Shown here in pieces: positions 28,590-33,217 of a stretch of 50,687 nucleotides of DNA (positions within the stretch are counted from its first letter, which is position 1; every line of letters begins with the position of its first letter). The translations under genes and the position numbers were made by a program. The notes under the pieces were generated by a model, which was not told the DNA's origin, ran no database searches, and was given only the letters and a program-made list of their open reading frames with translations. This stretch comes from Lentisphaerota bacterium. GTDB lineage: Bacteria; Verrucomicrobiota; Lentisphaeria; Victivallales; UBA1829. Location of the stretch: contig SUWI01000010.1 in assembly GCA_015061565.1 (NCBI GenBank), positions 1-50,687 on the forward strand, read 5' to 3'.

Positions 28590-29468
28590 ATGAAAACCTC
28601 CGAACTGCGTCGGCAGCTGACCTCGATTTTTCGTGAAAACGGTTTCGAGTCGCCTGAACTTGAGGCGGACTATATCGCGTCGGAGATCCTTCATCTGCGC
28701 GGATTCGAACTGCTGCTGCATGATTCCGATGAACTGACCGATCCCCAGCTCGCGCAGGCACGGGATTTTTGCAGCCGCCGGCTGAAAAACGAACCGTTCC
28801 AGTATATTTTCGGCTGGACTCCGTTCCGCGAGCTCGATTTGCAGGTGGGACCGGGGGTCCTGATCCCGCGTCCGGAAACCGAATTCATGCTCGATTCCGT
28901 GCTGAAAAAACTGCCGCGCAACGCCCTGGTGTGCGAGCTCGGCACCGGTTCGGGCGCCATTGCCCTGTCTCTGGCTTTCGAACGGCCCGATCTGCAGGTC
29001 CATGCCAGTGAGCTTTCCCCCGCGGCTCTGCACTGGGCCGAACTCAATCTCTCATCCCTGAAACTGCCGAACGTGCATCTTTATTCCGGCAGTCTGTTCG
29101 ATCCGTTTCCCCCGGACCTGAAATTCGATGCGGTGATCGCCAATCTGCCTTACATTGCCGAAGAGGAACGGGCTGTCCTGCCGCCGAATGTGCGCGATTA
29201 CGAGCCGCCGGAAGCGCTGTTCGCGACCGATCACGGCTGTGCGCTGATCGAACAGGCGGTCCGCGAAGCGCCGGAACATCTGAATCCCGCATCCGCACAG
29301 CTTTTTTTCGAGATCGGCGAGACCCAGGGCGAACGGCTGAAGAAATTCACCTTGGCGCAGGGCTTTTTCACGATTGCGGAGATTTTGCCGGATCAGTATG
29401 GGGTTCCCCGCCAGCTGGCGGCACGGCGGGATCAAGCTCGTCCGGATCATCCGAACGCGCCGCACTGA
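28590..29468 (+). CDS. prmC: Peptide chain release factor N(5)-glutamine methyltransferase
   Basis: FQYIFGWTPFRELDLQVGPGVLIPRPETEFML, CELGTGSGAIALSLA, FDAVIANLPYI (NLPY instead of NPPY). Confidence 0.9.
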   Translation: MKTSELRRQLTSIFRENGFESPELEADYIASEILHLRGFELLLHDSDELTDPQLAQARDFCSRRLKNEPFQYIFGWTPFRELDLQVGPGVLIPRPETEFMLDSVLKKLPRNALVCELGTGSGAIALSLAFERPDLQVHASELSPAALHWAELNLSSLKLPNVHLYSGSLFDPFPPDLKFDAVIANLPYIAEEERAVLPPNVRDYEPPEALFATDHGCALIEQAVREAPEHLNPASAQLFFEIGETQGERLKKFTLAQGFFTIAEILPDQYGVPRQLAARRDQARPDHPNAPH

Positions 29469-30540
29469 ACGCGATCCCGAAAGTCAGCAGCACGCCCAGC
29501 AGCGAGCTGCCGCCGTAACTGAGGATCGGCAGCGTGATGCCCGTCGGCGGGATCAGCACGCAGTTCACGCTGATATGGATCAGCGCCTGGATCAGATAGA
29601 TCGCTCCCGCGGCAAAGATGAAATATCTCCGGTCGTTGTTCCTGCCCTTGACTTTCCAGGAGAGGAGACAGAACGCAATGCTCATGGCCAGAAATCCCGC
29701 AATGACCAGCATTCCGCCCAGAAATCCGGTCGATTCCACGATCGAGGCATAGAGTGAATCCGTGTGCGGCAGCGGCAGAAAACTGCCCGACCACAATGCT
29801 TTGCCCCAGTCCGCTCCGGTCCAGCCGCCGTGCGCCATCGTGTATTGGAATTGACGGATATGCCAGGCACTGCTGCTTTCCTGGTTCAGGAAGCCGATGA
29901 TCCGCATCATGGCATAATCATTGGCCAGCAGGAAATAGAGGGAGGCCAGCGCCATGGCTCCGCCCGCGATCAGCAGATAATGCAGCGGTGTTCCGCCCAC
30001 GACCGCGATCAGGAGAAAGATCAGGAAGAACATCATGGCCCCGCCGTAATCCGGTTCCGCCATTACCAGTCCCATGCAGAGCCCCGCGGTCAGGAAGATT
30101 TTCAGGGTTTTTCCTGCGGTCCGTTTTTCCCGCTGATCCCATTGCACGCACAGATACAGCAGGAAAACGGTTTTCACCAGTTCGGACGGCTGGATATTGA
30201 TCCGGCCGAACCTGAGCCAGCCGCGCATGCCGTTGACCGTTTCGCCGCAGACCAGCACCAGGATCAGCAGCAGGATCCCCGCCGGCATCAGCCACGATGA
30301 CGCTTTCCGGTACCAGCGGAACGGCACGGCCGCGGACACCAGAAAAACCAGCATGCAAGGCAGCAGCCAGAGCAGCTGCCGCATCACGAACACCGTCGGA
30401 TCGGCACCGTATGCACGCGAATTGTAGATCGCCAGACAGCCCAGCAGTCCGCTCAGGATCAGCAGCAGTGCGGTCCCGAACGGGAAAAGCCGGTTCCGGC
30501 TTCCCGGATCATTTTCCCGCCAGACTGTTTTCGAATCCAT
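29368..30540 (-). CDS. ftsW: FtsW/RodA/SpoVE (SEDS) family protein
   Basis: AEPDYGGAMMFFLIF, LPHTDSLYASIVESTGFLGG, IPPTGITLPILSYGGSSLL. Start at inner ATG after AGGAAACAG. Confidence 0.85.
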   Translation of the reverse strand: MDSKTVWRENDPGSRNRLFPFGTALLLILSGLLGCLAIYNSRAYGADPTVFVMRQLLWLLPCMLVFLVSAAVPFRWYRKASSWLMPAGILLLILVLVCGETVNGMRGWLRFGRINIQPSELVKTVFLLYLCVQWDQREKRTAGKTLKIFLTAGLCMGLVMAEPDYGGAMMFFLIFLLIAVVGGTPLHYLLIAGGAMALASLYFLLANDYAMMRIIGFLNQESSSAWHIRQFQYTMAHGGWTGADWGKALWSGSFLPLPHTDSLYASIVESTGFLGGMLVIAGFLAMSIAFCLLSWKVKGRNNDRRYFIFAAGAIYLIQALIHISVNCVLIPPTGITLPILSYGGSSLLGVLLTFGIAFSAARSDDPDELDPAVPPAGGEPHTDPAKSPQS

Positions 30541-31252
30541 CTGTTTCCTGTCCTTTTTCTTCCAGTTCCGCCAGATTTTCATTCAGCCGGACATCCCGGC
30601 CGTTTTCCGGCTGACGGATCACCTGCAGCGTTTCATAGATCCAGCTGCCGTTACGGTCCAGCATCACCCGCATCCGTCCTGCCTTTCCGGACAGTTCCAG
30701 ATCGTAAGTCTGTTCCAGACCGGATATGCCGACCCGTTCTTTCCGGTCGTTCAGCGCGGTCTCGCCGAGCTGTTCCCGCACGGCCGGATTTCCGGCATAA
30801 CGCCGTTCCAGCCTGCCTTCGGTGCGGATCCCCTGAATGCCGCGGAAGATCCGGGCACATTTTTCGATTTCGTCTGCCGACAAGTCTTTCCTGAGGACGA
30901 CAGGCAATTCTGCGGTTTCTGGCGGCAGTTCTGTTCCGGGTATGGCCTCGTCCAGCCGGCGCTGCAGATGATGCCGGCGGTTTTTCTCCGGATGCCGGTC
31001 CAGGATCAGGTCGCAGCGGAACACATCTTCGGCCAGAACTGCTCCATCCCGGTCCAGGATCCGTCCCCGCCGGGCCGGTATTTCCGCCGTCCGCCACGCG
31101 ATCGGATGGGATCTTTTCAGCAGGGCCTGACGGTCCCTCACAGTGAAGGTGTAGACTTTTGACGCCGCGAACGCTGCCCAGGTCAGCAGCAGGGCCAGGA
31201 TGATGACGGTCCGGATCTTGTATTCGGCGGAAGTCATTTCCCTGCCTTTCAT
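30509..31252 (-). CDS. FtsI/bPBP-like pedestal (dimerisation) protein lacking a transpeptidase domain
   Basis: N-terminal TM helix, IPARRGRILDRDGAVLAED, ...GISGLEQTYDLELSGKAGRMRVMLDRNGS...PENGRDVRLNENLAELEEKGQ then stop; no SxxK/SxN/KTG follows. Start at 31252 (ATGA overlap) or 31237. Confidence 0.7.
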   Translation of the reverse strand: MKGREMTSAEYKIRTVIILALLLTWAAFAASKVYTFTVRDRQALLKRSHPIAWRTAEIPARRGRILDRDGAVLAEDVFRCDLILDRHPEKNRRHHLQRRLDEAIPGTELPPETAELPVVLRKDLSADEIEKCARIFRGIQGIRTEGRLERRYAGNPAVREQLGETALNDRKERVGISGLEQTYDLELSGKAGRMRVMLDRNGSWIYETLQVIRQPENGRDVRLNENLAELEEKGQETDGFENSLAGK

Positions 31253-31539
31253 TCCCGGAGTTCCGGCCGCATCCCTGTCTGCAGACTCTGCAGAATATAT
31301 TCCGGATGGCGCACGGTCAGCGACCGCAGTTCTCTGGCATCCGGATTTGCTTTTTCCTGATGAAGCAGCTGTTCGACCGTGGCTTGCCACTGGGTATGGG
31401 CCGCTTCCTGTTCCGCCTGACGGGTCATCATGCTGTCACCCAGCCGTCCCGCGCCGATCAGCAGCGCCGCGACGCCGAGCAGGATCAGCGCGGCCAGCAG
31501 ACGGAATGATTTCCGGTTGTCGGTGTTGTTCCCGTTCAT
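31249..31539 (-). CDS. Small single-TM protein in the FtsL position
   Basis: TM segment FRLLAALILLGVAALLIGAG plus a short extracytoplasmic helix; ATGA overlap with mraZ. Confidence 0.55.
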   Translation of the reverse strand: MNGNNTDNRKSFRLLAALILLGVAALLIGAGRLGDSMMTRQAEQEAAHTQWQATVEQLLHQEKANPDARELRSLTVRHPEYILQSLQTGMRPELRE

Positions 31540-32033
31540 TTCCGGTCCTCCTCCCTGTCTGAAATATGGCCCTGCAGATCGTCGTTCATTTCCTGTTCGC
31601 CCTTTTCACGGGCATGCTCCATCAGCTTGCGCTGTTCTTCCTGCCACCTCGCGGCGTCCCAGATCTCGACTCCGATCTCCACGCCCGCCACCACGACGCT
31701 TCCGGCCGCGGCCAGTCCCGCGAATTCCCGGTATTCCGGCGGGATCGTGACCCGTCCCTGCGCCGAGATCCGCTGCGAACAGCTCCAGGCTCCGAAACGC
31801 CGCTGTTCCCGACGGTAGACCATGCTTTTCCCCGCTCGTTCGGCGGCATTGCTTTCCGCGTGACGCATCGCTTCGAACACTTTTTCCGGATACACCGCGA
31901 CCGCGCCTTCGGGCAGGCAATGCAAAACCACATCGCTGCCGCTCCGGGCGAAATCTTCCAGCACGCGCGGACTGAGTTTCACCCGTCCGTTCGCATCCAT
32001 CTGGCATTTATCGGTTCCGCAGAAAGCAAGCAT
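31536..32033 (-). CDS. mraZ: Transcriptional regulator MraZ
   Basis: Two AbrB-like repeats: CQMDANGRVKLSPRVLEDF and QRISAQGRVTIPPEYREFAGL; VVVAGVEIGVEIWDAARW. Confidence 0.85.
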   Translation of the reverse strand: MLAFCGTDKCQMDANGRVKLSPRVLEDFARSGSDVVLHCLPEGAVAVYPEKVFEAMRHAESNAAERAGKSMVYRREQRRFGAWSCSQRISAQGRVTIPPEYREFAGLAAAGSVVVAGVEIGVEIWDAARWQEEQRKLMEHAREKGEQEMNDDLQGHISDREEDRK

Positions 32034-32045
32034 TTTCCAATTTTA

Positions 32046-32090
32046 CTCCGTAATATTCCAATATTTACCACTATATTCCAATTTTTTCCA
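32046..32090 (-). promoter_or_regulatory. Predicted MraZ operator array, five boxes at 10-bp period
   Basis: Minus strand TGGAA, TGGAA, TGGTA, TGGAA, CGGAG; on the + strand the boxes end at 32090, 32080, 32070, 32060, 32050. Confidence 0.7.
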
Positions 32091-32097
32091 AATTCAA
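32070..32097 (-). promoter_or_regulatory. Predicted mraZ promoter
   Basis: Minus strand TTGAAT-N16-TATAGT with two boxes inside the spacer. Confidence 0.5.
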
Positions 32098-32136: not shown

Positions 32137-32166
32137 TTGACACCGCTATATAACGGTTCGTATAAT
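32137..32166 (+). promoter_or_regulatory. Predicted sigma70-type promoter of the GntR-family regulator, with an operator-like inverted repeat in the spacer
   Basis: TTGACA-N18-TATAAT; ACCGCTATATAACGGT at 32142..32157. Confidence 0.7.
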
Positions 32167-32188: not shown

Positions 32189-33217
32189 ATGCCGGAAATG
32201 AAATATGACAAGCTGTGCGAGCAATTGGAACGGATGATCCGCAACGGCACTTTCGGGAACCGGCTGCCGGGCATTCACAAGCTGGCCGGACAGCTGGGCG
32301 CGAACCATATCACGATCCGCAAGGCGCTCGAACTGCTGATCGACCGCGGTCTGCTGGAAGTGATCCCCTCCCGCGGCACGTTCGTCCGGGAACAGGAAAA
32401 AGCCGTGCGCAATTTCCGTGTGATCGGCTGCATCGGCATTTGTTGCGGTTCCCATGTCCGGGAAATGGTATTCACCCGCCAGAACGAGCTGATGCGGGAT
32501 AGCGGCTATAAAATTCTTGATATTTCCGCTTCGGCCAAAATCTTCCGTGACAATCCCCGGCTGCTGCTTCAATTTCCGGTGGACGGCTATATTTTCTGCG
32601 GCAGTTCGCTTTCCCGGGAAATGATGCAGGTGCTGATGGACAACGGCATTCCGCTCATTTCCACGATCAACAGCAATTTCCCGGAGATCAATCAGGTCGG
32701 CATGGACCATTTCGCCGGTTATGCCGAAGCCTTGAAAATACTGAAACTGAGAGGATGCCGCAGGATCGCTTTTCTGGGCTATCAGCGGCAAGACGATTTT
32801 CAGAATTATATCGATGACATCCGCGCTGTTTTCCGGCAGGAACTCGGGACGGCATTCAATCCCGGACTTTTTTCCGTTTTTTGCTCGGAGGATTATTACC
32901 TGCGGTATGTGGAAGACTACCACAAAGTCATCGCCGAAGAGTGCATTCGCTCCTGGGGCAACAATCCGCCGGACGGGCTGGTCTGTCATTTTTATACGGC
33001 TCCGACCGTCAGGCAACTGATGCCCGAAGTGGAAACCGTGGTCTTCACGTCCTGCGGAGACCGTCCGGAAGGGGATATCGTCATGTATGAAGACCTTCCG
33101 GCAATTCTGTCTGCTGCATCCGGACGGATGATCGAAATACTCTCCGGCGATGCTTCCATTACCGAAATCCGGATTCCGTTTGTGATCCGGGAAAAAGAGA
33201 AGACTGAATCGAAATGA
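32189..33217 (+). CDS. GntR-family regulator with LacI-like periplasmic-binding sensor domain
   Basis: LPGIHKLAGQLGANHITIRKALELLIDRGLLEVIPSRGTFV winged helix; sensor segment DGYIFCGSSLSREMMQVLMDNGIPLISTI and GCRRIAFLGY. Confidence 0.85.
   Translation: MPEMKYDKLCEQLERMIRNGTFGNRLPGIHKLAGQLGANHITIRKALELLIDRGLLEVIPSRGTFVREQEKAVRNFRVIGCIGICCGSHVREMVFTRQNELMRDSGYKILDISASAKIFRDNPRLLLQFPVDGYIFCGSSLSREMMQVLMDNGIPLISTINSNFPEINQVGMDHFAGYAEALKILKLRGCRRIAFLGYQRQDDFQNYIDDIRAVFRQELGTAFNPGLFSVFCSEDYYLRYVEDYHKVIAEECIRSWGNNPPDGLVCHFYTAPTVRQLMPEVETVVFTSCGDRPEGDIVMYEDLPAILSAASGRMIEILSGDASITEIRIPFVIREKEKTESK

Follow-up and report, generated by a model that had tools for sequence, protein, structure and literature searches.

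On the current view, it is the pedestal of a class B penicillin-binding protein (bPBP) that activates the partner SEDS polymerase. PBP2 and FtsI are needed for the polymerase activity of RodA and FtsW in vitro, the transmembrane (TM) helix of the bPBP contacting TM8/9 of the SEDS protein and the pedestal contacting its extracellular loop 4 (PMC8078798). In vitro, FtsW seems to need no more of FtsI than its TM segment, and B. subtilis can divide with a catalytically dead PBP2B (PMC8078798). Activation and crosslinking are hard to separate in these systems, because the partners described in the cited work also carry a transpeptidase; a natural partner consisting of helix and pedestal only makes the two separable. 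Here we analyse such a protein, PED, encoded in a 50,687-nt window (the whole stretch of DNA that was analysed). In the literature searched, which mostly excluded subscription papers and preprints, we found neither a natural transpeptidase-less bPBP of this kind nor a paper on SEDS proteins in Lentisphaerae.

A class B PBP pedestal that ends before the transpeptidase domain

PED is a 247-aa protein encoded on the minus strand at positions 30509-31252, with its ATG at 31252 and its stop at 30509. Its sole Pfam domain is PBP_dimer (PF03717; residues 58-205, 61.6 bits against a cut-off of 24.4 bits), and the same search found no Transpeptidase domain. The best partial match in NCBIfam was pbp2_mrdA (69 bits, residues 14-224), and solved class B PBPs align with PED in sequence over the pedestal only. 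An AlphaFold2 model built from a 31-sequence alignment (pLDDT 94.3) consists of a helix at residues 8-39 followed by the pedestal, and a Foldseek search of the PDB with this model returned class B PBP pedestals, led by 6pl5_B (E = 2.4e-13), the PBP2 chain of the Thermus RodA-PBP2 complex. The rmsd of this match is 14 Å, probably because the membrane helix stands at a different angle to the pedestal in the model; helix-less crystal structures gave query TM-scores near 0.5, at 4.6-6 Å. The FtsI/PBP2-like helix and pedestal that a preliminary description had seen in this ORF are thus borne out, as is the expected structural likeness to PBP pedestals.

The first hallmark of a class B PBP, a single N-terminal TM helix with a PBP_dimer pedestal, is present in PED; the other, a C-terminal transpeptidase with SxxK, SxN and KTG motifs, has left no trace in its family (0/34 homologues). 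The window protein contains neither SxxK nor KTG and has a single chance SAD at residue 125, and the column that holds the catalytic Ser of full-length proteins is a gap in 34/34 stand-alone homologues. Its C-terminus, GRDVRL, corresponds to the segment that leads, in full-length proteins, into the transpeptidase sequence LTxD..LQ. No room for a catalytic domain is left after this point, because the next ORF, encoding a SEDS protein (29368-30582), overlaps PED. The preliminary description, which had noted the end just before the transpeptidase domain, the missing motifs and the lack of space, was right on all of these points.

Stand-alone pedestals share one end point in Lentisphaeria

A search of 60 relatives recovered stand-alone homologues with intact frames, about 220-280 aa long, in many genera; six loci in named relatives, found with a six-sequence subset as query, belong to Lentisphaeria, Victivallales and Lentisphaerae MAGs. 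When the class was surveyed with a family profile, the same truncation was found in 57/121 sampled genomes (at least 125 bits in an open frame of at most 364 aa), the stand-alone homologues measuring 218-262 aa; a further 12 genomes, all from family f11, have a PED that has diverged more (50-85 bits). In this survey, which was made within the phylum and included many incomplete MAGs, no stand-alone PED occurred outside the class among the roughly 150 matches listed, which are full-length bPBPs in frames of at least 579 aa.

All 34 homologues examined (31 in the family alignment and three added later) stop 5-31 aa past the same pedestal residue, D220 in the window. They include those of the single-contig genomes G036, G067 and G143, the second of which, from family f11, has the same mraZ-PED-SEDS arrangement. 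Judged from the dN/dS of close pairs (0.10-0.29), PED is under purifying selection. The end point shared across families rules out a local deletion, frameshift or assembly artefact as the cause of the short ORF, and a full-length ftsI at the PED locus of relatives, which would have pointed to a local deletion, was looked for and not found.

The adjacent gene encodes a third SEDS protein

The SEDS gene next to PED, on the minus strand at 29368-30582, encodes a protein matching PF01098 with 208 bits. In a tree of 57 SEDS proteins, three clades were resolved: one with E. coli FtsW, to which the C109 protein of the same genome belongs, one with E. coli RodA and the C382 protein of the same genome, and a third, SEDS3. 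All PED-linked SEDS proteins, including the divergent ones of f11, form this single clade (100/100), so that neither FtsW nor RodA is the neighbour of PED. The overlap with ftsW reported in the preliminary description is therefore real as an overlap with a SEDS gene, but by phylogeny that gene is neither ftsW nor rodA. At its other end, the SEDS3 ORF converges with a HemK/PrmC-like ORF (28590-29468, plus strand) in a 3' overlap of about 100 bp (29368-29468). A divergent FtsW-like protein in another genome (G151, L145:1489-2562; 110 bits), seemingly without the usual SEDS motifs, has no pedestal neighbour.

The catalytic Asp is kept in 26/26 SEDS3 proteins (D275 in the window, equivalent to D297 of E. 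coli FtsW and D262 of RodA), as are the QPxE, K, D197, R246 and E305 positions. Other changes are specific to the clade, namely N359 to H and F298 to S in 26/26 and R137 to G in 24/26, and the substrate or activity of SEDS3 could differ, because several of these positions are near-invariant in FtsW and RodA.

PED and SEDS3 share their pattern of presence and absence. Among 59 genomes of the order, at least three SEDS proteins were found in 33/34 genomes with PED and at most two in 23/25 without it (p = 5e-13, Fisher, with relatedness ignored), and the absences of PED fall in several separate lineages (g5, f8 and parts of f4), in which FtsW and RodA are retained. In the one PED-containing exception, G040, SEDS3 (on another contig) and RodA were detected and FtsW was not found; the third SEDS matches of the two exceptions without PED are not SEDS3.

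PED and SEDS3 lie in a second mraZ-headed operon

Four minus-strand genes overlap head to tail in the order mraZ2 - small TM protein - PED - SEDS3, an order that recurs in most loci examined. The first, at 31536-32033, encodes MraZ2, a second MraZ paralogue (PF02381, 60.6 bits), orthologues of which, 50-71% identical, lie ahead of PED at most of the order's loci. It overlaps the gene for the small TM protein (31249-31539) by 4 nt, and the latter in turn shares 4 nt (ATGA) with the start of PED. In MraZ-controlled operons, mraZ is preceded by TGGNN boxes arranged in tandem and spaced 5 nt apart. Four TGGNA boxes with a 10-nt period (TGGAA, TGGAA, TGGTA, TGGAA; 32056-32090, minus strand) precede mraZ2 in the window as a MraZ-type operator array, and the array also precedes mraZ2 in relatives. 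Embedded in the boxes is a promoter-like pair, TTGAAT-16-TATAGT (32070-32097, minus strand), which is a consensus match only, two sites of this type being found over both strands together against 1.1 expected. Back to back with the operon lies a divergent GntR-like regulator gene (32189-33217), preceded by a perfect sigma-70 consensus (TTGACA-18-TATAAT, 32137-32166, plus strand).

The small TM protein, 96 aa long with a single TM segment, has counterparts of about 90 aa between mraZ and PED in most relatives and matches no Pfam family. This conserved protein has an LLLLGA motif in its membrane segment and ends in a region with a PEL motif. Position and topology fit a putative FtsL, without a family match, and the protein may belong to the SEDS3-PED complex as a new subunit. 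An apparent fusion of this protein with PED (a 352-aa frame in G040) was dropped, as its N-terminal part appears to be an unrelated upstream frame.

Placement of PED in the division operon, as the preliminary description had it, was not upheld, since mraZ-rsmH-ftsL-ftsI lies on another contig. This contig, C112, carries a second mraZ (L037:1567-1941), rsmH and a gene resembling ftsL, and it also encodes the full-length FtsI that had been sought elsewhere in the genome (662 aa, transpeptidase domain included); mreC and a full-length PBP2 lie on contig C270. Each genome thus has a pair of MraZ paralogues, of which one heads rsmH-ftsL-ftsI and the other the PED operon; a MraZ gene of G036 lies at L065:7951-8454. 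In the single-contig genome G036, mraZ-rsmH-ftsL-ftsI, mreC/PBP2, FtsW before a murG-like gene, and RodA are all accompanied by a separate mraZ2-PED-SEDS3 operon.

Class A PBPs of the GT51 type were missing from 30/34 genomes of the order with PED and from 19/25 without it; the window genome has one (contig C315). SEDS proteins may be the sole peptidoglycan polymerases in most of the order's sampled genomes, because class A PBPs are absent there. The idea that SEDS3-PED stands in for class A PBPs is unsupported, GT51 being absent also from the 19/25 genomes without PED, and an apparent exchange between the two is driven by genus g5 alone.

Ancestry of PED

In a tree of pedestals, PED forms one clade (100/100) that groups with PBP2 of the class (97.4/100), apart from FtsI, although the alignment is short and E. 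coli PBP2 falls outside the grouping. We had considered PED as a truncated FtsI and rejected this in favour of PBP2 ancestry, the true FtsI being on contig C112. PED most likely began as a PBP2-like duplicate. Its transpeptidase domain would have gone no later than the ancestor of the class, and some lineages would since have lost the operon altogether.

PED as a probable dedicated activator of SEDS3

We consider it probable that PED is a dedicated, non-catalytic activator or subunit of the adjacent SEDS3, forming a synthase free of crosslinking. Such a role is plausible because purified FtsW and RodA need contact with their PBP, and transpeptidase-dead PBPs can support division; PED holds the contact parts of a bPBP, TM helix and pedestal, and little else. 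The preliminary description had proposed a stand-alone activator of FtsW. The part that stands, with good support from class-wide conservation, shared presence and absence, the operon and the fold, is a pedestal partner of the adjacent SEDS protein; the part that does not is the identity of the partner, which is not FtsW, and the pedestal is PBP2-like. In the mechanism we propose, the TM helix of PED would dock on SEDS3 within the membrane and the pedestal would touch extracellular loop 4, and SEDS3, presumably activated by this contact, would turn a lipid-linked precursor, most probably lipid II, into glycan strands, with no crosslinking activity of its own. Any crosslinks would have to be made in trans, by FtsI, PBP2 or some other enzyme. 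For the small TM protein encoded at the ftsL position, a role as another subunit or as a regulator is conceivable, and control of the operon would fall to MraZ2.

Several positions in PED and SEDS3 coincide with residues linked to activation. PED-specific W53 (23/34) occupies the position of FtsI L62 and Thermus PBP2 L43, and PED-specific M197 (32/34) that of FtsI R210, both positions being tied to SEDS activation in FtsI/PBP2 (PMC8078798). Leu is found in 24/34 PED proteins at the position of the activating Q51L change of E. coli PBP2, as it also is in some FtsI, and Thr at the activating RodA A234T position in 17/26 SEDS3 proteins, including that of the window. RodA(A234T) raises peptidoglycan synthesis by the Rod system in vivo, but in vitro RodA(A234T)-PBP2 shows no gain in speed over the wild type (PMC6207328), and in E. 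coli FtsW the A270T change causes a partial defect (PMC8078798). The likeness to activating alleles is only suggestive, because the gain of RodA(A234T) is not clear in vitro. We put forward only tentatively, as a possibility we rather doubt, that SEDS3-PED is a third class of SEDS synthase lacking a crosslinking domain, tuned toward constitutive activity by the Thr and Leu residues, and making strands uncrosslinked by its own complex, which would serve some dedicated role in Lentisphaeria and be regulated by a separate MraZ switch.

Other readings of the locus are less probable. SEDS3-PED might polymerise another lipid-linked glycan, for example an envelope or capsule polymer, which would need no transpeptidase; the substitutions at N359, F298 and R137 and the wholly missing transpeptidase would suit this. 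It is nonetheless unlikely, though not negligibly so, given that the catalytic Asp, QPxE, K, D197, R246 and E305 are intact, that a link to the cell wall is indicated by the MraZ-type boxes and by a gene order like that of dcw, and that no recurrent sugar-pathway genes lie beside the operon in the loci that were annotated. We regard as quite unlikely that PED is a decoy or regulatory subunit that competes with PBP2 or FtsI for RodA or FtsW and damps or redirects the canonical machines, with SEDS3 a mere neighbour: adjacency and joint presence or absence tie PED to SEDS3, and FtsW and RodA are kept where PED is missing, even though a PBP2 paralogue whose TM helix and pedestal retain their SEDS-contacting surfaces could act in this way.

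The absent domain itself could be accounted for in two further ways. A split bPBP, in which a transpeptidase encoded elsewhere works with PED, would find candidates in short PF00905 frames (about 244-305 aa) in a few relatives; the window genome, however, has only FtsI, PBP2 and one class A PBP, and single-contig G036 only two PF00905 proteins, both full-length bPBPs, which makes this arrangement very improbable. The missing domain would also be expected of a decaying full-length bPBP or of an assembly or frameshift artefact, a reading to which we give practically no credence and which is refuted by the end point common to 34 proteins of many genera, single-contig genomes included, and by intact frames with dN/dS of 0.10-0.29.

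PED as a dedicated activator of SEDS3 suggests that the activation of wall synthesis has been uncoupled in nature from crosslinking of the wall. The pair would show that SEDS polymerisation needs no physically attached crosslinker, PED would serve biochemical and structural work as a minimal activator, and SEDS3 would be a wall polymerase whose partner offers no beta-lactam target.

Comparison with known systems

The closest described system is the RodA-PBP2 (MrdB-MrdA) elongation synthase, akin to which SEDS3-PED combines a SEDS protein with a bPBP TM helix and pedestal; PED is nearest to its PBP2 in the tree, in NCBIfam (pbp2_mrdA, 69 bits) and in structure (6pl5). Unlike RodA-PBP2, however, PED lacks a transpeptidase domain, SEDS3 lies outside the RodA clade, and the genes belong to a MraZ operon rather than to mreCD. 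The order mraZ - (ftsL position) - bPBP - SEDS resembles the head of the dcw cluster and FtsW-FtsI, but rsmH and mur genes are missing from the PED operon, the canonical mraZ-rsmH-ftsL-ftsI lies elsewhere and SEDS3 is not FtsW. As in SpoVE-SpoVD, an extra SEDS protein has its own bPBP partner; SpoVD keeps its transpeptidase domain, whereas PED is without one. The dead bPBPs (point mutants of B. subtilis PBP2B and S. aureus PBP1) likewise support division without transpeptidase activity of their own, but those are laboratory mutants or drug-inhibited full-length proteins, whereas PED is naturally, and class-wide, free of the whole domain.
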